From contig JAQGDQ010000258.1 of NCBI GenBank assembly GCA_030141605.1, positions 258,000 through 321,999 on the forward strand: DNA of 64,000 nucleotides, written 5' to 3'. Below are positions 4,204-62,200 of this stretch, one piece after another (position 1 is the stretch's first letter; every line of letters begins with the position of its first letter). The stretch comes from Tubiluchus corallicola. Its lineage: Eukaryota; Priapulida; Priapulimorpha; Priapulimorphida; Tubiluchidae. The notes under the pieces were generated by a model. The model was not told the origin of the DNA, ran no database searches, and worked only from the letters and a program-made list of their open reading frames with translations. The translations under genes were made by a program, and so were the position numbers.

Positions 4204-4822
4204 GGTGGTGGATTTGATGTGGTGTGGTGGTGGTGTGCTTTGTGTGTTGTGCTATGGATGGTGTGGTGGGGTGATAGGGTGTGTGGGGTGTGGTGTGGGT
4301 AGTGTGGTATGGAGTGGGTGGCGTGGTGTGTGGGTGGGTGTTGTGGTGCAGTGTGGTGTTATGGTGTGGTACTGTGCGGTGTGATGTGGTTGAGTATTAT
4401 GGTGTGGGTGGTGTGGTGTGGTGTGTGGGTGGTGCGGTGCAGTGGTATGGTGTGGTGTGGTGGAGTCGTATGGTGTGGGTGGTGTGGTGTGTGGGTGGTG
4501 CGGTGTGCTGCAGCGGTGTGGTGCGGTGTGGTGTGTAGGTTGGTGGGTGGTGTGGTGTTATGGTGTGGTGCTGTGCGGTGTGGTGCAGTGTGGTGTTATG
4601 GTGTGGTGCTGTGCGGTGTGATGAGGTGGAGTATTATGGTGTGGTGTGGTGTGTGGGTGGTGCAGTGGTATGGTGTGGTGTGATGTGGTGGAGTGGTATG
4701 GTGTGGGTGGTGTGGTGTGTAGGTGGTATGGTGGTGTGGTGTGATATGGTGGTGTGGTGTGTAGGTGGGTGGGTGGTGTGGTGCAGTGCGGTGTGATGAG
4801 GTGGAGTGGTGTGGTGTGGGTT
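4204..4822. repeat. G/T-only minisatellite (GTGTGGTGTG-like units)
   Basis: About 620 bases of the + strand are almost only G and T, built from degenerate 5- and 10-base units such as GGTGT, GTGGT and TGGTGTGGTG, with scattered GTGGGTGG and GTGCGGTG variants. Longer sub-blocks (for example GTGTGTGGGTGGTGCGGTG) recur, which suggests higher-order duplication. The open frames on both strands (Val/Trp/Cys/Gly-rich on +, His/Thr/Pro-rich on -) follow from the base composition and are not genes. The strand asymmetry and many GG steps could favour unusual DNA structure. Confidence 0.9.
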
Positions 4823-5091: not shown

Positions 5092-5127
5092 ATGCGAAAA
5101 TCACTATGGCAGGAGAAATTGTTGTAG
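5092..5127 (+). other. upstream ORF overlapping the BCAS2 start
   Basis: An out-of-frame ATG at 5092 opens an 11-codon reading frame that ends with TAG at 5125-5127, overlapping the BCAS2 start codon at 5106. If it lies in the mature mRNA it could reduce initiation at the main start. No mRNA evidence is available. Confidence 0.4.
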
Positions 5128-5765
5128 TAGATGCTCTTCCGTACTTTGATCATGAATATGACGAACCAGGAGTGAGAGAAGCTGCACTGGAATTAGTAGA
5201 AGAGGAGACAAGGAGGTACCGACCAACAAAAAACTACCTGGACTACCTTCCACCTCCTAATTTCAGTTTATTTGAAACAGAGGTTTTAAAGAATGAATTT
5301 GAAAGATTGTCTAATCGTCTACCAATGGACATGTTAAGTATGAAACGTTATGAACTTCCTGCTCCTCCTGCGGGAAAAACAACAGATGTTCAAGCTTGGC
5401 AGGAATGTGTGGAAAATTCAATGGCACAGCTAGAACATCAAGCCACTCGTATAGCTAATCTAGAACTGATGACGATGTACGGGGCCAATGCATGGAAAGT
5501 GCATAACAGTATTCTTGCACAGTTGGTTGAACAAAGCCAGAAACAGTTACAGGAACTAAACAAGATGATCCAAAACATCAACTGGCATCGTAAGCAAGAC
5601 CAGACCAAAGCCGGAGAGACGCTTAATAAGTTAGAAGCAAACTGGGTCGGACTAGTGTCAAAAAATTACGAGATTGAACAAGCATGTGCTCAACTAGAGA
5701 AAGAGTTAAATGAATTGCAAGAAAGTGGTGCCACCAAGCGAATAAAATATGATGCATACCAGTAG
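5106..5765 (+). CDS. BCAS2: Pre-mRNA-splicing factor SPF27 (BCAS2)
   Basis: BCAS2/SPF27 is a core subunit of the PRP19/NTC complex, which acts in the nucleus to activate the spliceosome. The reading frame gives 219 residues, close to the roughly 225 of vertebrate BCAS2. It is recognised by near-identical family blocks: VVDALPYFD near the N-terminus, [19 protein letters not shown], then [31 protein letters not shown] and LVSKNYEIE. The C-terminal third is a heptad-patterned coiled coil used in complex assembly. The start is set at the ATG giving [15 protein letters not shown], because the upstream in-frame codons are not conserved and begin with TTG. The coding region has no introns and no inactivating change. 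A consensus acceptor lies 60 bases upstream and AATAAA about 210 bases after the stop. It may have lost its introns or be an old retrocopy; no poly(A) remnant is visible. Confidence 0.97.
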
Positions 5766-9976: not shown

Positions 9977-27051
<17,075 letters not shown>

Positions 27052-39842: not shown

Positions 39843-40142
39843 ATGCAATTTATTTTAAAAAGATTTGTATCCATCTTAAAAGTTGTGTACCTCAGTGCTA
39901 TAAGACAAATGCGTCATGTCAATCTAAAATACGTAGCTCTAAAAAAATTGGAAAAATTACAGATTTCATCTAAATTTGAAAGCACTCTATACTCATGTTC
40001 TGAACTGGCTTACATTTTAACCATAATTCGTTTACTACTTATACTTGGTGGTATCGAAACTAACCCTGGACCCATTTTGCCAAATAATAATAATAATAAC
40101 ACCAACAATAATAATACCAGTGATGAGCTAAAAAAATCATGA
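39843..40142 (+). pseudogene. LINE N-terminal segment with 2A-like motif
   Basis: The 99 codons start at ATG 39843. A basic segment is followed by a hydrophobic run (LTIIRLLLIL), directly before GGIETNPGP at 40047-40073, then an Asn-rich stretch and stop. The last residues match the 2A ribosome-skipping consensus D-(V/I)-E-x-N-P-G-P, but the Asp is replaced by Gly. 2A-like motifs at the N-terminus of CR1-type LINEs are known from several marine invertebrates. The segment ends in a different frame from the endonuclease, separated by A7. Confidence 0.8.
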
Positions 40143-41185
40143 TTACTTATAAAAAGAACATCAAATTTCTAAATATAAATATTCAAAGTCTCGTCAAAAA
40201 ACACTGGCTGCTGAAAGATACAATTCACGCCACCGAAAATCTGATTGTAGGCATAACAGAAACTTGGCTCCATAAACAAATACTTAGCAACACTATAGAA
40301 TTACCTAATCACACATTAATAAGAAGAGATAGATGTAAAAATAAGAAAGGTGGAGGGGGTGCGATGTATATACCTTCACACCTGAGACCACAAGAAATGA
40401 AAGGCATCAGAACCGGCAAGATTGAATCTGTTTGGTGCAGCATTGAGAACTATGTAATAGGAACCATATATAGACCACCCAATCTCAAACACAAAACATT
40501 TTTCAAATACTTTAGTGAAGAACTAGAACGCAGTGCTTTCGAAAATAAAAAAGTTCTTATAATGGGCGATTTCAACCTTGATATTTTAGCTACAAACACA
40601 CTGGCATACAAAACATACACAGAGCTCTTAAAACAATATAATGTCCACATACTTAACAACAATAAACCTACTCGAATTTCTAAAACATCAGCCACAGTAA
40701 TCGACCATTTCAGTTCGAATAGTAACAATAATTTCGTAGCATATGATACTTTCCCGTGTGATTATTCAGATCATCATTTCACAATATTAGTAGATAAAAT
40801 GACCCCACAGCATAATAATAACCAAAATTCAGTCTGGCATTTAATGAGAGACTACGCCCAATACAACAAACATTCATACTTAATCGACTTAGCAAAAATG
40901 AACTGGACCTCCGTATATATGACTGATAAAATAGATACACAAGTTAATATTCTGACATATAATGTCGAATATTGCCTTAATGTACATGCACCATATAAAA
41001 ACGTAAAGCAAATCCCACAACAAAGCAAACTCAATAACGAAAGTACCTGGACAACACCTGAACTTGACAAACTAAGAATAGCGAAAAACAGAATGTATAA
41101 TATATGGGAAAAGAACAAAACTAAAAACAATCATAACAATTATAAAAAAAGAGAAATCAATTTAATAATCTTAATAAATGCTTGA
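40139..41185 (+). pseudogene. LINE apurinic-type endonuclease domain
   Basis: The frame carries endonuclease motifs in order: LNINIQSLV near the start, GITETWLH with the metal-binding Glu, GGGGAMYI, IGTIYRPPN, IMGDFNLDIL (GDFN) and a C-terminal SDHHFTILV (SDHH). This enzyme nicks target DNA to prime reverse transcription. The frame ends just after A7 at 41144-41150. A one-base shift there restores a family-like continuation into the reverse transcriptase, so the stop is due to an indel. Confidence 0.88.
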
Positions 41186-42255
41186 AAAATAAACATATAC
41201 AACAACAATGTAAAAACGCAACAAATACCAAAGAAAAATGGAAAATTATTAACAATGTAATAAATAAATGCCGTAACAAACTAACGAGTGTTGACGAAAT
41301 TAAGATCAACAACACTGTTATTACAAAACCCAAAGATATTGCCAACGCGCTAAATGCAATATTCCTGAATCTTGGAAATTTTAAGGGAGTGGCTTCTCAT
41401 ATTAGCAATAATATAATTAATAAATTAAAAAACAAATCGTCTAACACAGTATTCTCATTCAAAAGCGTCACAGTAGGAGAAATCAACGACATATTAAATA
41501 ACCTAAGTTCCAACAAAGGGAGTGGACCATCAGATATTCCTATCAAAATTCTAAAAGATAGTGCATCTGTAATAGCCCCGCATATGACTTACATTGCTAA
41601 TCAGATAATTATGAGAGGCGAATTTCCAACGGTATGTAAAATGGCAAACGTGACTCCAATCCATAAAAAAGATCCAAAATGTGATCCCATGAATTATCGC
41701 CCAATTTCCGTAATCCATTGTTTCGGCAAAGTTTGGGAAAGGGTAATTTATGATCAGATAAATTCATATGTAAATAAACATGAACTTTTATCAAAACATC
41801 AGTTTGGCTTCCGTAAACACCTTTCAACCATTGACGCCCTAATACACACAACAGAAAATTGGAGACATAGTTTAGACAACAAGCAATACATTTTAGCAGC
41901 ATTTTTGGATTTAAGTAAAGCTTTCGATAGCATTAATCACGAACTACTTTACGATAATTTAAAACAAATCGGATTAGATTCGATATCGATAAAACTGATA
42001 CAAAATTATCTCAAAGATAGACAACAACGAGTAAAGTTAGATACAACCAACTTTTCTGACTGGGCCACGTTAAACAGAGGTATACCGCAAGGAACACTAT
42101 TAGGTCCGTTATTATTTTGCCTATATATAAACAACACATCCAGTGTATTAAAACACTCACAAATAACGCAATACGCTGATGACACTACAATCTACATAGC
42201 CCATGAAAATGTCCAAACTGCAAAAAATTATTTAGAAGAAGATATAAATGAATAA
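41182..42255 (+). pseudogene. LINE reverse transcriptase domain
   Basis: The frame shows the RT blocks GSGPSDIPIKIL, NYRPISVIHCFGKVWERV, HQFGFRKHLSTIDAL, FLDLSKAFDSINHELL (catalytic Asp), RGIPQGTLLGPLLFCLYINN and the catalytic YADD at 42172-42183. The active-site aspartates are intact. After LEEDINE it stops. The next frame starts at KTEFMILSP, and compared with the family the intervening segment of about 15 residues is missing, implying a deletion of 3n+2 bases near 42245. Confidence 0.92.
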
Positions 42256-43052
42256 TGACAAAACAGAATTCATGATACTGTCACCCTCATTAAATACTAA
42301 TGATGCATCATCAACCACTTTGACAATAGATAATGCTGTAATCAAACAAACTAAGAATGTTAAATTCCTGGGCATACAAGTAGACAATAATCTTTCATGG
42401 GATGATCACTTTAATAACGTATACACAAAAATGGCATCTAGCACATCATATCTCCGACAAGTTAAAGGGCAACTAACAAAGGAAACTAAAACACTAATAT
42501 ATAAAACTTTAGTTCTACCACACTTCTTATATGGATGTACGCTACTTCAAAAAACCAAAAGAGAAAATTACTTAAAATTAAATCTCCTTCAAAACTATGC
42601 GTTGAGATTGATAGCTGGGTACTCATACAAACACAAGGCAGGTAGACAAAAATTCAAAGCTTCAACAACTAACCTGAGAAAAACTTTAAAATTCCCAATC
42701 ATTGAAGCACACAAAGAATATTTTACTCTGCTTTTTATATTTAAATACATTAACAACATCAGCAAACCATTCCAGAATAACAGATTTACCTTTTTTTCCA
42801 AATCCTATCGTTAATTCCAGAACAAGCAATCTAAAACAAATTAGGACAAATACCCACTATGGAACGAACTCTGTAATCAAACAAGCAATTTTACTTTGGA
42901 ATTCTCTACCATTACAGGTTAAACAAATCAAGTCCCTATCAGCATTTAAAACAAAATTAAAATCACTAATATTAACCAGATATGAAATACCATCACACCA
43001 GTACGACAACATACACACTAATTCCGAATTCATATACCCACGGCCATATTAA
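42248..43052 (+). pseudogene. LINE C-terminal region (two overlapping frames)
   Basis: The frame from 42248 reads KTEFMILSP, VKFLGIQVDNNLSWDDH, LVLPHFLYGCTLLQ and LNLLQNYALRLI, the conserved region after RT in CR1-like elements. At T7 (42791-42797) the sense passes to the frame that ends at 43052, which reads THYGTNSVIKQAILLWNSLP and SLSAFKTKLKSLIL, the usual end of these proteins. The break is a single-base homopolymer shift. Confidence 0.85.
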
Positions 43053-48806: not shown

Positions 48807-49181
48807 ATCGAACAAAAGGTTATTTTGACTGTGTACTTTTCCTTTCACATTTTTATTTAAATTCTTCTCATTTTAATTAATTTTCTCTAATTATCATTTC
48901 TTTAAATTCACCGCTATCACCTTTCCGTCCGTCTTTTTGCGTTTTTTTCTAGTTACTCCTCTTCTTATTTTGTTTTGTTTCTTTCTTCCATATTTGCTCT
49001 GTCCCCCTTTTTCTTTTTCTTTATTTCTCTCTCTCTCTCTCTCTCTTTCTCTTTCTGTTGTTATATCGTTAATTGTTCTTTGTGTTATTGTCATGTGCCA
49101 TAATTCAGTTTATTTTTTGTATTAATCTGTGATGTTTGTATGAACGTTGCAAAGTTTGAAAAAACATTAAATCAAATCCAC

Positions 49182-49240
<59 letters not shown>

Positions 49241-49260
49241 TCTCCTCCCCCTTTCTTTCT
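48807..49260 (+). repeat. Dispersed repeat, copy A (ends in (CT)n)
   Basis: This copy and 61671-62206 share long near-identical blocks in the same order and orientation: ATCGAACAAAAGGTTATTTT, TTAATTAATTTTCTCTAATT, CACCGCTATCACCTTTC, a first (CT)n run, GTTGTTATATCGTTAATTG, and GTATGAACG...AAAGTTTGAAAAAAC followed by a second, longer (CT)n. Together they define a dispersed repeat of at least 370 bp plus microsatellite. No coding content is recognised; the pyrimidine-rich open frame is an artefact. Confidence 0.85.
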
Positions 49261-50465
49261 CTCTCTCTCTCTCCTCTTTTTTCTCTTTCTGTCTCTTGTC
49301 CCGTCCATTTCTGTCATGTCATTTCATTGTCAGTCTCTTCCTCAACCCCATTCTCTCGTCTTTCCCTTTCTGCCTCACCTCTCCTCTCTTCTTTTTTTTC
49401 TTACTTCTGTTCCTAACTTACTCCCTCACTTCCACACCTTACCTCTCATTCACCGATTCTTTGTTTTATCTGCCTGCTGTCTGTCTTGTTAGCTGGCTGG
49501 CTTTTCTGTTTTTTTGTTCGGAGTCCTTTCTTATGTTCATAGATCTGTCTGCCCGTCCTCCATTTGTCCATCTGTCTATTTGTCATAATTATGATTGCCT
49601 CTTGCTTTCCTCTTCGCTGATTATTTTCTCACATTTTCCTGTTACATTCTATACTTTTACCTTATACAATTTTCTCTCAGCTTCTCTGTGCGCTTTTGCT
49701 GCTAGATTTATTGCCTGAGAGCTTTCGGCACTTGTAAAAATTTAACGCGGTTGGTCAGTAAGCAAGTGTCTCTTTCTAGCCTTTTCACTTTTCGTTCGGA
49801 GAATAGAAAGTGACAAGAAAAGTCAGAGCGTGAAAAGGCAGCTAAGTATTCCCCAGAGATAATTTTGTCTTTAAGAAACCATTTACGGTATTTAGCAATA
49901 GCAATGAAGCTGCCTGATGACACACTATAAGCCTGTGCAGACAAGTGTAGCAACTTTTTGGCCTTTACGTATTTTCCTAATTATTATTATTATTACTTTC
50001 TTCTCTGTTGTTCTTTGTATTAGAAATTATCAAAACCAACAAATAGGAAGAATTAGGTAGTGGAGGAATGTGTTCCAAGACTGCAAACGCGTTACCTCCT
50101 AGTTGTTTGACTGCAGCTGATACACGTTAGGCGATTAAGTTGTTTTTCGGATTTGAGGGAAAAGATAAAATTCAAACTGGCTATTTGACATTCTCGGTGA
50201 TATATATTTGTAAGTGTTCTAAACACGTATTACACATCCATACTATAAGTTACAAAAGGTTGGTTTTCAAGCTGTTTTCAGTTTTAATTGAAAATGACTT
50301 TTGGATACCCACTCAAGTTCCCATTACTTCTATCTATTATGTGGTACTATAAGTAATGCTGGTTTCGAAGCCCAATAGCTATTTTTGACGATGAACGACT
50401 CACTCAAGTTCCTAAACTGTGCGAATCAATAACAGGTTGTTGGTTCGAGGCCAATAATTAATTGC
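49261..50465. other. Pyrimidine-rich stretch, then AT-rich DNA; no gene seen
   Basis: 49260-49700 continues strongly C/T-rich on the + strand beyond the dispersed repeat, giving a long Ser/Leu/Phe open frame that is a composition artefact. The rest is ordinary AT-rich DNA. Confidence 0.5.
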
Positions 50466-54917: not shown

Positions 54918-54919
54918 AG

Positions 54920-55002
54920 ATGCAGTCAAATTCTCGTGTACCAGGACTTTTTGTTTTCATGATGTGCTTATTATTACCATTAATAACGGCTTCAGAAACA
55001 AG
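54920..55002 (+). CDS. Dh31: DH31 exon 1: signal peptide
   Basis: A CTTTTTCAG acceptor at 54911-54919 abuts the ATG directly, so at least one non-coding exon lies upstream. The exon reads [20 protein letters not shown]... to ASET, a hydrophobic signal core with likely cleavage after TA or TAS. It ends with two bases (AG) before the consensus donor GTGAGTG at 55003. Confidence 0.88.
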
Positions 55003-58000
55003 GTGAGTGTAAATTAACTCTGGGATATTTGTTAGTTCTATGTTTGTTTATGGAAAAATTCCCGGCTGGAGCTCAATTTTTATTCAATGAAACAACGTCA
55101 TTATTTCACATTCTCAATTTATTTTGTTCGAGATAAACTATGTAGAAGCATAAGCAATAAAGTAAGTATGAGAACGCTCAGGAAAAATGAACTAAATTGG
55201 GAATTAAACCCTGAAACGGGTAGGTCATGTTCTGAGGGTTACTGGACAGTTCATTTATCAAAGCTTTCCAAAAATCAATTCAGCCAGACAAAAACCAAAC
55301 AATTTCTTCAGAGAATGGATTTTGTGCAAAAATGCCATGCTTCATTTGAACACTAAGAACAATTGTTCATTTTGGAGATCAAAGAACTGATCTTGTTACG
55401 TGAATGTGGATACCGGACAGTATAGTGCCGGAAAAAATTAAGTAATTAACTAAGAACTTTTCACGAAAAGTTGATCATCACTGAATGAGCAAATGAGTGA
55501 GTGAGTGAGTAAATAAATGATAGAATGTGCAGTTGGCTAAAAGGAATTATCAATTAATTAAATGGTAGATAATTATTAAGAAAATACCAGTGTAAGGGTA
55601 CAAATATGAAGTAAGATACTAGAAATATGGTCATTATTGGTTTCTAATTATTTAAAATTCCCACAATTTAAACAATAGAAAGACACGATGTTTCAGACCG
55701 CCACTGCGCTTCCAACACAGTATCACAGAAAGACATTAAAAGTAATGGAAGGAATAAACAAAACCCCACACAATTTACATACCCTAAGCCTCACCGAACC
55801 CCTAACCATAACCCTGACCCTAATCCTATGACTAATCCCAACAGCTCACCTAACCCTGATCCTAACCATAATTCTAATCCGCTTCTGGAACCAATTTCTT
55901 GTGTGTGGGGGATTGTTAACTTTAGCCAAGCTGATTTACACTTAAAAATGCCACACTGAAAAAAAGGACACAATCACATACTAAAATCACGGGAGGTACA
56001 ATAAATAAACACTGGAAAAGCACAGAACCAGAAAACAGTATCATTGGCCACAATTACTGTAACTGGGAGAGAGACAAAAACTTTTGACATGTCTGTAGCA
56101 AAGATCATTAGTTATATAAGCAGGAAAGAGTCATCCTTGTCACTAAGAATCAATTGTCACCATTGGTTTTGCTTCGTTACAGAAATAAGCGTGAAACCGG
56201 TATTTCAGATCCACAGACAACTATCAGAGTCCTTGAAGAACTTATTGACATTATTAAAAGTCAACAAAATGATTTGTAAGTATTTTTTCTCATAGCGATG
56301 ACTCGGAATTCATCAAGAGCATCAGCTTATAATACTTTGTGTTTCTTGTCGATAGATGGAACCACATATCTTATACAACGAACGTATAAGCTCGGGAAAG
56401 ATTTTATAGCACATTTTTTATCATTTATAGAAATTTTTAGGCCCTAAAGATGGTAGGTAGTAGTATCTGGTGTGACTTTAAGTATTTCATTTTCAAGTAA
56501 TTTGCGAAATTGTGATTTTAAATGCTAGAAAATTAAGTGGAATGAAAAGAGAAATGCTATTAAACGGAAAAAGAAGTTGCAGTGAAAAATTATAACAGCG
56601 AAGCTGTTAAGTAGGTGTTTGTTCAATGGACCAAGTTTCGATACTGTCATTGAAAATGTACGTACGCAGCTTTATGCTATCGTACTTTAAGCTCAAATTC
56701 GATGTGTTATCCCTGGGCTACTAGTTTTTTCATTTGAAATACCACAATAATATACCTTCAGAATAGGGATAAACCTCTACCAAAACGTCAGTTGAAAACA
56801 TTACTCTTTGCCCTTTGATGTGGAAACAAATTCTAATTCTCTTGTGGAATGACGAATTTCATGTTTTCTTGTATAGACTATCTCTTGCTTATTCTTGTAG
56901 ATGGCCAACGTCATACATCATTCTGTCATTTTTCAAAACGCTAAGAACGGATTTAACTAAACAAATTTAGGCAGCATCTATCTGCCGCGAACCCTGCTTC
57001 TAACAAATGTAAATCTAATGGAGCAGTTCTGCATGTTTCTGATTATCCCTCGACTTCAACATTCAAAACGGTTATCTGTATGTGCCCTTTTGCTCATTAG
57101 TAGGTAGGGATTGTGCGCCCAGAAACAAATAATGAGCAAGTTTGTGTTACAAGACACCTCTCAGTCTTGTCATGCGTTTCTCTCTCGTTAAGCCTGATTA
57201 AAGTCTTCTCAGACCCGAATTTGCGGAGATGATCAGTTGATTTCTGTAAAATCTTCAGTAAAAATGGGTTGCAGAATGTATCAGGACATATGTTTCAAAT
57301 GAAGCGCATTTCACCCAGAACAGGACTAACTTAACATGACGGATTTGGTTTCAATGTATTAAATAACTTAATTATTCACTTGTGGAATAAAATGTATAAT
57401 GTTGCTCTTAGTAGAGCGTTTTATATTTGTGCACATAATTATGTTGCTATAGTTTAAGAAGTCGCATTCCTGCAAGGAAAAATTACATTCTATTTTGTGG
57501 TTGTATAAACTCTGATGTTTTATATAAGTCTCCATTTATTAAAACTGGCGAAACCTATTATGTGATGAATTTAAGCTGTAAATTTTTAGGCAAGGAGTTT
57601 TAATATGTATTTTAGATTTTAAATTAGTAATGTATAATCTGTTTTATCAATAATTTTTATGTGTGTTGTAAAAATATGTAATATAGTACTATGTGTACTG
57701 AATTAAGTTAAAATTTAAATTAAATTAAAAAGTATTCATTTGAGTAGTCACAGACATGCAATGTTTACTTTTCTTTTGGTCGTCAGTATAAACCTTCTGC
57801 TAGACAAGAAAAGCATGAATTCGAATTCATACAATATTACTAGTGTGTATATCTTTAATCCACCAAAGAGTTTAAGAATCTTTCGCAAAAGTTGACCTAC
57901 TATGTTTCTGTAATTACTGGAATGTATCAGACTTAAACAACAGCGTCAAAGACCAAAATAAGAACAGAATAAAACTAAATTAGCAAGAATATTGCAAAGT

Positions 58001-58906
58001 AAAACAGAAAAAACTGAAATGGTGCACTAAAATGCATAATTAAACAATATGCAATTTCCTGCCTTTTTCACATTTACTTTTTAAATTATGTTAAACAAAC
58101 ATTTTGGAAAAATTTTCTCAAAATTAACTTCGGGCTCTAGATAGCAGCAGAGTAAGCTAATTGGTCTTTCTAATAAAATATTAATGTTTATCGACTTTTT
58201 TCATTCAATTTTGCATTGCCCCGAGTGTCAGCTTTTTCAAAGCTTCCAGAGCAAACAGTGTAAACGTGATTAAATCACGAAAAGCTCATAAAATGTTTGG
58301 TTTAGCAAAAATAACAGAGATAATAGGAATCGGCAGAAACTTGATAATATACAGTTAAATAGCATGTAAACGAGGAAAAGAAGACATCATCATTACAATA
58401 ACTAACAAGTGCTTCGTTCACATCTGTACCACGCTAAAAATTTATCACAAACACAAATCTAGTAGTTGATGCAGAAAAGAGAACAAAATTTATTAGTGCT
58501 TTAAATAATAATTGTGATATGCATCATGTATACATGAAGCGAAGTGAAATTCTATTAGCAGCTTTTGTTAATCTTATAAAGGACGATTTTATCCTCTATA
58601 CCACATTATCAGGAAATCAAGATTAAACAAATCAACTTTCATATGATTATACAAGACATTGTCCATACTTACATGTATGTAAATCTTCAAATTAAAAATT
58701 TAAACTAAATTAATTCAAATTAAATTTTTGAAAAATTGAAAGTGTTAAATAATCTTACAGTGAAACACACGTGTTTTTCTAAATTTGCTATATGAACTAA
58801 CTTAGTATAATGGTACAAATTTTTGATTTTCGTAATGAAATTATTATGTTGTAAATCATATGCCCGTTGTAAATCTGTCGGTAATAAAGTTTAATAATAA
58901 ATGTTA

Positions 58907-58970
<64 letters not shown>

Positions 58971-59471
58971 TTACATTAATATATTAATATTATTATATAT
59001 TACTATTATTATTATTATTATTATTATTATCATTAATAAAGTATATTAATAATAGGAAGAATAACATTATCAACATCAACATTACCTCCATTACTGCCAC
59101 GACTGTCATCATCATCAGGCGCAGCAGCGACAACAGCAACAGCAGCAGCAACGACAACAACAATTGGCTAAAATTTCGCTTATCATGTAAAATCATAGCT
59201 CATGCACTGTTATTGTGCTAATGCTGTTAACAAAACTGAAGCTTATTGCATAACACGTAAAATATTTAGACCACGGTGTACAACCGTACATTTATACGCA
59301 AATTTTTACAATTGAGGATGTGCACTTAGTTCATTAAAATTTCTGTATTTTAGGAGCAAACGAAATGAATTTGGAAGTGGCCTAGCACGGAGTTATTCAG
59401 GAAATCAACTTGCCAAACACCTCCTTGGACTTCAGGCAGCCAATTTTGCAGCCGGACCAGGCCGACGCTAA
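54920..59471 (+). CDS. Dh31: DH31 (calcitonin-like diuretic hormone) precursor, 3-exon gene
   Basis: Exons 54920-55002, 56183-56275 and 59354-59471 join in phase to encode a 97-residue prepropeptide. DH31 is a calcitonin-family neuropeptide that acts on a class B GPCR through cAMP, with roles in fluid secretion, gut motility and sleep in insects. The signal peptide is about residues 1-24, then a spacer with a KR at 30-31, then SKR at 60-62. The mature peptide is at 63-94, followed by GRR and stop. It reads [15 protein letters not shown] then [17 protein letters not shown], to be C-terminally amidated on Pro. It matches the Drosophila DH31 pattern GLAR-YSG-Q-AKH-GL-AANFA-GP, with one extra residue near the N-terminus. 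Like arthropod DH31 it lacks the disulphide ring of vertebrate and molluscan calcitonins. The coding lengths of 83, 93 and 118 bases sum to 294, which is 97 codons plus stop. Confidence 0.94.
55003..56182 (+). other. DH31 intron 1
   Basis: The 1.18-kb intron runs from GTGAGTG to TTCGTTACAG. It contains a telomere-like degenerate repeat at 55790-55880 and a short TGAG tetranucleotide run at 55497-55514. Confidence 0.8.
55790..55880. repeat. Degenerate telomere-like CCCTAA repeat
   Basis: About 90 bases are built from variants of CCTAAC and CCCTAA (CTAACCATAACCCTGACCC and similar). Interstitial arrays of this kind are usually old microsatellites or scars. This one is in DH31 intron 1. Confidence 0.75.
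56183..56275 (+). CDS. Dh31: DH31 exon 2: propeptide spacer
   Basis: The acceptor GCTTCGTTACAG ends at 56182. The first base completes Arg28 with exon 1. The exon encodes [15 protein letters not shown], then a short acidic-hydrophobic helix-like part [15 protein letters not shown], and ends with TT before GTAAGTATTT. KR at residues 30-31 is a first dibasic processing site, so the 32-59 spacer may be released as a separate peptide. Exact splice consensus and phase on both sides support it. Confidence 0.88.
58907..59033. repeat. (AAT)n and (ATT)n in inverted array
   Basis: About 65 bases of AAT units are followed, after TTACATTAATATATTAATAT, by about 30 bases of ATT/TTA units, so the two runs are self-complementary and can form a long AT hairpin. 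Confidence 0.9.
59086..59165. repeat. (CAG/CAA/ACG)n trinucleotide tract
   Basis: Degenerate triplets such as GCAGCAGCGACAACAGCAAC run over about 80 bases inside DH31 intron 2. Confidence 0.7.
59354..59471 (+). CDS. Dh31: DH31 exon 3: mature amidated peptide
   Basis: The acceptor ATTTCTGTATTTTAG ends at 59353. The first base completes Leu59. SKR is the cleavage site before the peptide. The 32-residue peptide runs from Asn63 to Pro94, then Gly95 (amide donor), RR and TAA at 59469-59471. Conserved DH31 positions visible are GLAR, YSG, Q, AKH, GL, AANFA and the C-terminal GP. Compared with Drosophila, Ser replaces Gly before YSG, and Leu-Leu replaces Arg-Met in the middle. Confidence 0.95.
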
Positions 59472-61670: not shown

Positions 61671-61895
61671 ATCGAACAAAAGGTTATTTTGACGGTGTAC
61701 TTCTCCTTTTACATTTTTATTAAAATTCTTCTCATTTTAATTAATTTTCTCTAATTATCATTTCTTTAAATTCACCGCTATCACCTTTCTTCCTTTCCGT
61801 CCGTCTTTTTGCGCTTTTTTCTAGCTACTCCTCTTCTTATTTTGTTTTGTTTCGTTATTCCATATTTGCTCTGTCCCCCTTTTTCTCTTTCTTTA

Positions 61896-61926
<31 letters not shown>

Positions 61927-62103
61927 TTCTGTTGTTATATCGTTAATTGTTTTTGTGTTATTGTCGTGTGTCATAATTCAATGTATTTTTTGTATTAATT
62001 TGTGATGTTTGTATGAACGCTGTAAAGTTTGAAAAAACGTTAAATCAAATCCTTTCTCTCTCTTCCTCTCCTTCTCCCCCTCTCTTTCTTTCTCTCTGTG
62101 TCT

Positions 62104-62200
<97 letters not shown>

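Follow-up and report, generated by a model that had tools for sequence, protein, structure and literature searches.

Gene Structure of the DH31-Type Precursor

A 64-kilobase (kb) stretch of the Tubiluchus corallicola genome, comprising positions 258000-321999 of contig C2131 and referred to here as the window, very likely contains a nuclear gene, probably a functional one, that encodes a precursor of a DH31-type (calcitonin-like) neuropeptide and is the more diverged of two paralogues. This reading is based on an intact frame over three GT-AG exons, on the identical layout of the paralogue and on a substitution pattern of constraint on the encoded peptide. The window has a G + C content of 34.6%, and the genome used for the searches comprises 343,548,820 bases (343.5 Mb) in 2344 contigs.

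A first-pass annotation had proposed three short coding exons at this place, and their coordinates, lengths, consensus splice sites and reading frame could be confirmed exactly (Table 1). Exon 1 is bordered by ttctttttcag/ATG...ACAAG/gtgagt, exon 2 by ttacag/AAAT...ATTT/gtaagt, and exon 3 extends from attttag/GAGC to the stop codon TAA. Joined in frame, the three exons encode a precursor of 97 residues. Due to the position of the ATG directly behind the acceptor, with 0 bases between the two, an untranslated 5′ exon upstream of position 54920 is likely, so that this position marks the start of the coding region and not that of the gene.

The precursor begins with a predicted signal peptide, whose hydrophobic core has a mean Kyte-Doolittle value of 2.85 over 12 residues and whose cleavage point was placed by eye. 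The Lys-Arg site, the peptide of 32 residues, the amidation glycine and the final Arg-Arg with its stop codon are all read from the sequence as proposed, and the precursor terminates straight after Gly-Arg-Arg without a C-terminal extension. For the amidated peptide, an MH+ of 3258.677 is predicted, and for the amidated peptide of the paralogue described below 3215.671. Motif and matrix scans of intron 2 and of the downstream part of the window revealed neither a second DH31-like peptide nor a second amidated peptide exon.

Table 1. Features of the DH31-type gene in the window and coding exons of its paralogue (nt, nucleotides; positions without a contig name refer to the window)
Feature	Position	Strand	Remarks
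3′ splice acceptor AG (likely; closes an intron of the 5′ untranslated part)	54918..54919	+	directly abuts ATG: aatgttctttttcag/ATG
Coding exon 1, 83 nt	54920..55002	+	signal peptide and start of propeptide; ends in phase 2
Intron 1, GT-AG	55003..56182	+	contains a degenerate TAACCC-like repeat (ca. 55797-55880)
Coding exon 2, 93 nt	56183..56275	+	propeptide; motif PxxTIxVLxxLIDxIxS common to paralogue
Intron 2, GT-AG, phase 2	56276..59353	+	
Coding exon 3, 118 nt	59354..59471	+	SKR, mature peptide, amidation Gly, RR, stop
Lys-Arg convertase site 5′ of mature peptide	59358..59363	+	
Mature DH31-type peptide, 32 residues	59364..59459	+	genome match C2131:317363-317467 spans peptide and GRR
Amidation Gly, Arg-Arg cleavage site and stop TAA	59460..59471	+	
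Paralogue coding exon 1, 83 nt	C2128:141298-141380		
Paralogue coding exon 2, 90 nt	C2128:143831-143920		
Paralogue coding exon 3, 121 nt	C2128:145194-145314		

Similarity of the Peptide to DH31

The similarity to DH31 extends across the length of the peptide. With a matrix built from four DH31 sequences (that of Drosophila and three from publications; the wasp 34-mer was cut to 31 residues), the window peptide scored 92.5, compared with 17.0 for the runner-up in the window. In 100 shuffles of the window in two-base blocks, the highest score was 27.8 (mean 13.6, standard deviation 4.1). The window peptide is identical to the Drosophila form at 20 of 31 residues and to the Polyneoptera form at 18 of 31.

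A Pfam search with the precursor resulted in a single weak match to SAPS (E 0.08), which is below its cut-off. An insect DH31 peptide of 36 residues, used as a control, had zero matches, and therefore domain searches would miss such genes too. The first-pass annotation had already stated that standard open reading frame (ORF) searches would pass over the gene. The weak PDB matches of the precursor (best E 0.17) were to the Trp repressor and designed proteins and were disregarded. A text search of the literature with the exact peptide letters gave no match among the papers covered; either copy may be contained in supplements or carry a different name in public annotation.

A Paralogue in the Same Genome

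A search of the genome with the window peptide listed two places, its own gene and C2128:145216-145308 (71% identity over 31 residues, E 1.6e-8). The reciprocal search with the peptide of the paralogue (E 6.3e-9) listed just these two places at E values of up to 10. For the second place, a more conventional DH31 gene could be predicted at C2128:141298-145314. It has two phase-2 introns like the window gene, a precursor of 97 residues and a peptide of 32 residues. Its ATG is located one base after the acceptor (tttttcattttcag/gATG). This model was built with the window model in view, and for this reason the two are not fully independent; the length of exon 1, the intron phases and the precursor length are not freely adjustable.

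In the local alignment of window and paralogue, exon 1 scored 44, exon 2 scored 49 and exon 3 scored 124. The corresponding shuffle means were 19.3 (± 4.1), 19.6 and 21.9, and for none of the exons did any of the 2000 shuffles reach the real score. When the paralogue exons were searched against the window using tblastn, exon 3 was recovered with an E value of 4e-13 and exon 2 as the top match (E 0.005).

Over the 35 codons of the peptide and the following GRR, 25 of the 35 third positions differ between the two copies, compared with 18 of the 70 first and second positions. As far as it can be read from the two sequences, this excess is the pattern of selection on the protein, be it in a single lineage or in both, and it points to an old duplication. 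In total, the plan and phases of the paralogue, the exon similarity and the substitution pattern support the annotation of the window gene as a DH31 neuropeptide precursor in three coding exons. A calculation of helical moments gave no useful distinction between the peptides and was left unused.

The surroundings of the two genes were compared using 26 kb around the paralogue and the 64-kb window. Two matches were found by blastn, and tblastn of 335 open frames found exon 3 and one more. No flanking gene common to both regions was seen, and the matches beyond exon 3 were read as repeats. One blastn match links window positions 55747-55828 to a sequence (ca. C2128:139658-139745) that precedes paralogue exon 1 by about 1.5 kb. 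The repeat in intron 1 of the window gene is telomere-like.

Features Peculiar to the Window Copy

The peptides of window and paralogue are identical at 20 of 32 residues. Counted by eye, 2 of these identities fall within the 9 N-terminal residues and 18 within the remaining 23. An alignment of five DH31 peptides including that of the window contains 17 invariant columns, and compared with its four relatives therein the window copy is peculiar chiefly in the N-terminal NEFGS, in Ser for Gly before YSG and in AAGP for AGGP. The paralogue retains GYSG and AGGP instead of the SYSG and AAGP of the window copy, and it is nearer to the Polyneoptera peptide (24 of 31 residues identical).

The first-pass annotation had described the peptide as an unusual family member. 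This remains valid for the serine before YSG, which sets it apart from all four relatives. The length of 32 residues and the Leu-Leu pair, which had been named in the same context, are present in both copies and are thus features of the animal, not of the window copy.

Candidate Receptors

A profile search of the genome with PF00002 resulted in at least 57 matches. 25 of 30 loci were translated, and two of them, picked by eye, were searched against the PDB. The best match of the first exon (C263:7765-7947) was the calcitonin receptor (E 1.5e-13), followed by 5vai (‘uncharacterized protein’, E 1.1e-9) and the CGRP receptor (E 1.7e-9). The second exon (C2118:99820-99975) is ambiguous between the secretin receptor (E 8.5e-9) and the calcitonin receptor (E 1.1e-8). 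A receptor partner of the right type for the window peptide is therefore plausible, and the pairing itself we infer.

At the far end of the contig with the first receptor exon (C263:17554-22469), there are long frames that were judged by eye to be a bacterial-looking nucleotide-sugar dehydrogenase, an epimerase and glycosyltransferases. The contig looks like a chimera or a contamination, so that its assembly needs care. Furthermore, six contigs (C1752, C1831, C1974, C2072, C2074 and C2107) carry secretin-type receptor fragments of equal score and equal length with two stops each, perhaps a dispersed repeat that contains a receptor exon.

Other Features of the Window

On the forward strand, the splicing factor BCAS2/SPF27 is encoded in one unbroken open frame (5106-5765, Pfam E 1e-76). 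This is the sole BCAS2 place listed in the genome, and the gene is apparently intronless and present as a single copy. A search for BCAS2 in viral contigs found nothing. On the reverse strand, an open frame of 1179 residues without a Pfam match (10271-13810) lies downstream of a CBM_14 chitin-binding exon (17337-17633, E 6.7e-10) on the same strand, and the two perhaps form one secreted chitin-binding protein.

A non-LTR (long terminal repeat) retrotransposon with endonuclease and reverse transcriptase is located at 40127-43052 on the forward strand and is broken across several frames. Relatives of this long interspersed nuclear element (LINE) reverse transcriptase were sought in genome contigs, where nothing was found. 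A dispersed repeat that is in part CT-rich occurs at 48807-49296 and at 61671-62182, with 89% identity between these two copies. In addition, about 600 bases (4218-4819) consist of a degenerate TGTGG tandem repeat, which is partly open in one frame.

Interpretation and Alternative Explanations

Judged by its sequence, the window gene is probably a working DH31 paralogue with a diverged N-terminus. Several points weigh against this interpretation. Exon 1 was not recovered in the window by tblastn with the paralogue, the listed matches being other, mostly hydrophobic stretches, and its assignment is based on length, splice sites and pairwise alignment. For the peptide and GRR, a dN (nonsynonymous divergence) of 0.30 was obtained and dS (synonymous divergence) was not estimable, so that no dN/dS results. 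Constraint on the paralogue alone, or before the split, would feed the same third-position pattern. Finally, the N-terminus, the receptor-activating end in this family, has as read here 2 of 9 residues in common with the paralogue.

The best of the alternatives is a recently silenced pseudogene, in which case the copy on C2128 would do the work and the window copy would be drifting. The greater divergence of the latter (18 compared with 24 of 31 identities to the Polyneoptera peptide) would fit, as would its changes at places where the other four aligned peptides are constant (Ser for Gly, AAGP). This is nevertheless unlikely, as the window copy has an intact start, frame and stop, intact splice sites and intact KR, Gly and RR, and the differences between the copies concentrate at third positions, even though constraint on the C2128 copy and earlier constraint on the window copy contribute to this.

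Somewhat less probable still is a real peptide exon with wrongly assigned exons 1 and 2, due to other upstream exons or to alternative splicing to a different signal peptide. Short GT-AG exons occur by chance, the junctions were predicted from DNA alone, and exon 1 was the one missed in the tblastn search. However, the paralogue has a first coding exon and a precursor of equal length as well as equal intron phases, and the motif in exon 2 is common to both copies.

The order of an untranslated exon, a signal exon, a propeptide exon and a peptide exon in vertebrate CALCA resembles the layout found here, and alternative peptide exons are published for insect calcitonin genes; even so, a gene of the calcitonin type with a disulphide, or one that yields calcitonin and DH31 by alternative splicing, is highly improbable, as the peptide has no cysteine and the scans of intron 2 and the downstream window gave no further amidated peptide exon. 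A PF00214 calcitonin candidate, the single match of this model in the genome (E 0.85, with stops), was read as a chance match; the model is probably too vertebrate-biased to demonstrate absence.

For a working DH31 paralogue, a course of events analogous to that of the family would be expected. The precursor would enter the secretory pathway, be cleaved by convertases at KR and RR, and have its C-terminal glycine converted into a proline amide. The 32-mer would then be released from neurons or endocrine cells and, through a calcitonin/DH31-type receptor of class B1, signal via cyclic AMP or calcium in gut, excretory or nervous tissue.

In the calcitonin family, the N-terminus activates the receptor and the amidated C-terminus binds it. 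The C-terminal two thirds of the window peptide, which are conserved with the paralogue, should retain receptor binding, and the diverged N-terminus may alter potency or receptor choice. Since the two functions are divided in this way, the copies can, most boldly, be read as a ligand pair that is alike at the binding end and unlike at the activating end. On this tentative and rather doubtful reading, one copy would have kept its binding C-terminus after the duplication and rebuilt its activating N-terminus. The animal would thereby have gained another ligand with an efficacy or receptor choice of its own, which could be a biased, partial or even competing agonist at a shared calcitonin/DH31 receptor or a ligand for a second receptor type. 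Two DH31 ligands with an unlike N-terminus and a common C-terminus represent a natural swap experiment for the ligand-receptor question. Furthermore, ORF and domain searches easily overlook genes that consist of exons of 83-118 bases and have no match in Pfam, and for this reason reported losses need exon-level searches.

Comparison With Known Systems

The peptide was compared with the characteristics of DH31, for which a conserved proline amide and the absence of a cysteine pair are given as hallmarks in the literature. The 32-mer contains no cysteine and thus lacks the N-terminal pair, as in DH31. It ends in a proline, followed by the amidation glycine and a basic site (AAGP-G-RR-stop), and is preceded by a dibasic site (SKR) and a predicted signal peptide, the latter judged by its hydrophobic core. 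The length of 32 residues in both copies deviates from the 31 residues of DH31, but length is not strictly defining, and a wasp DH31 of 34 residues has been published.

Three publications describe DH31 from arthropods, annelids, nemerteans and brachiopods and its loss in most molluscs with the exception of a chiton (PMC3890597, PMC8557429, PMC6425005). In the genome searched here, the arthropod cuticle family PF00379, mollusc haemocyanin PF14830, the annelid linker PF16915 and COX1 each gave 0 matches, in searches without a positive control from an animal, although PF00002 gave its at least 57 matches in the same way. By the cuticle result the animal is probably no insect. In a mollusc other than a chiton the gene would be more surprising, and the haemocyanin result speaks mildly against such a source; a SINE probe for a suspected cephalopod matched at chance level. 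DH31 and calcitonin go back to an old protostome duplication and were retained patchily, and the pairing of ligands with receptor groups in lophotrochozoans is stated to be open (PMC8557429). In the passages considered from the spiralian literature (among them PMC3890597, PMC8557429, PMC6425005 and PMC5996578), neither two DH31 genes in one species nor a duplicate DH31 ligand pair was noted. The phrase ‘two DH31’ is used in connection with a crab (PMC8449533).

The closest counterpart of the window gene is compared first. The paralogue on C2128 likewise has three coding exons, the first of 83 nt, intron phases 2/2, a precursor of 97 residues and a 32-mer with Pro-Gly-basic and no tail. The insect DH31 (CT-DH) of Polyneoptera agrees in 18 of 31 residues, in the KR before the peptide and in Gly and basic residues after it (PMC7179676). 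It differs in its 31 residues and in precursors of 107-178 residues, which carry the peptide in the middle with RRRR behind it, whereas the window precursor stops after RR (PMC7179676).

Calcitonin-type peptides with an N-terminal disulphide, as reported for the scallop, have a C-terminal proline amide and calcitonin-type family B1 receptors in common with the proposed system, but their cysteine pair is absent from the window peptide (PMC5996578). The DH31 of lophotrochozoans (annelids, nemerteans, brachiopods and one chiton) resembles the window peptide as a cysteine-free calcitonin paralogue outside the arthropods (PMC3890597, PMC8557429, PMC6425005). The window gene is a new, diverged member of this well-known hormone family and no new kind of system.

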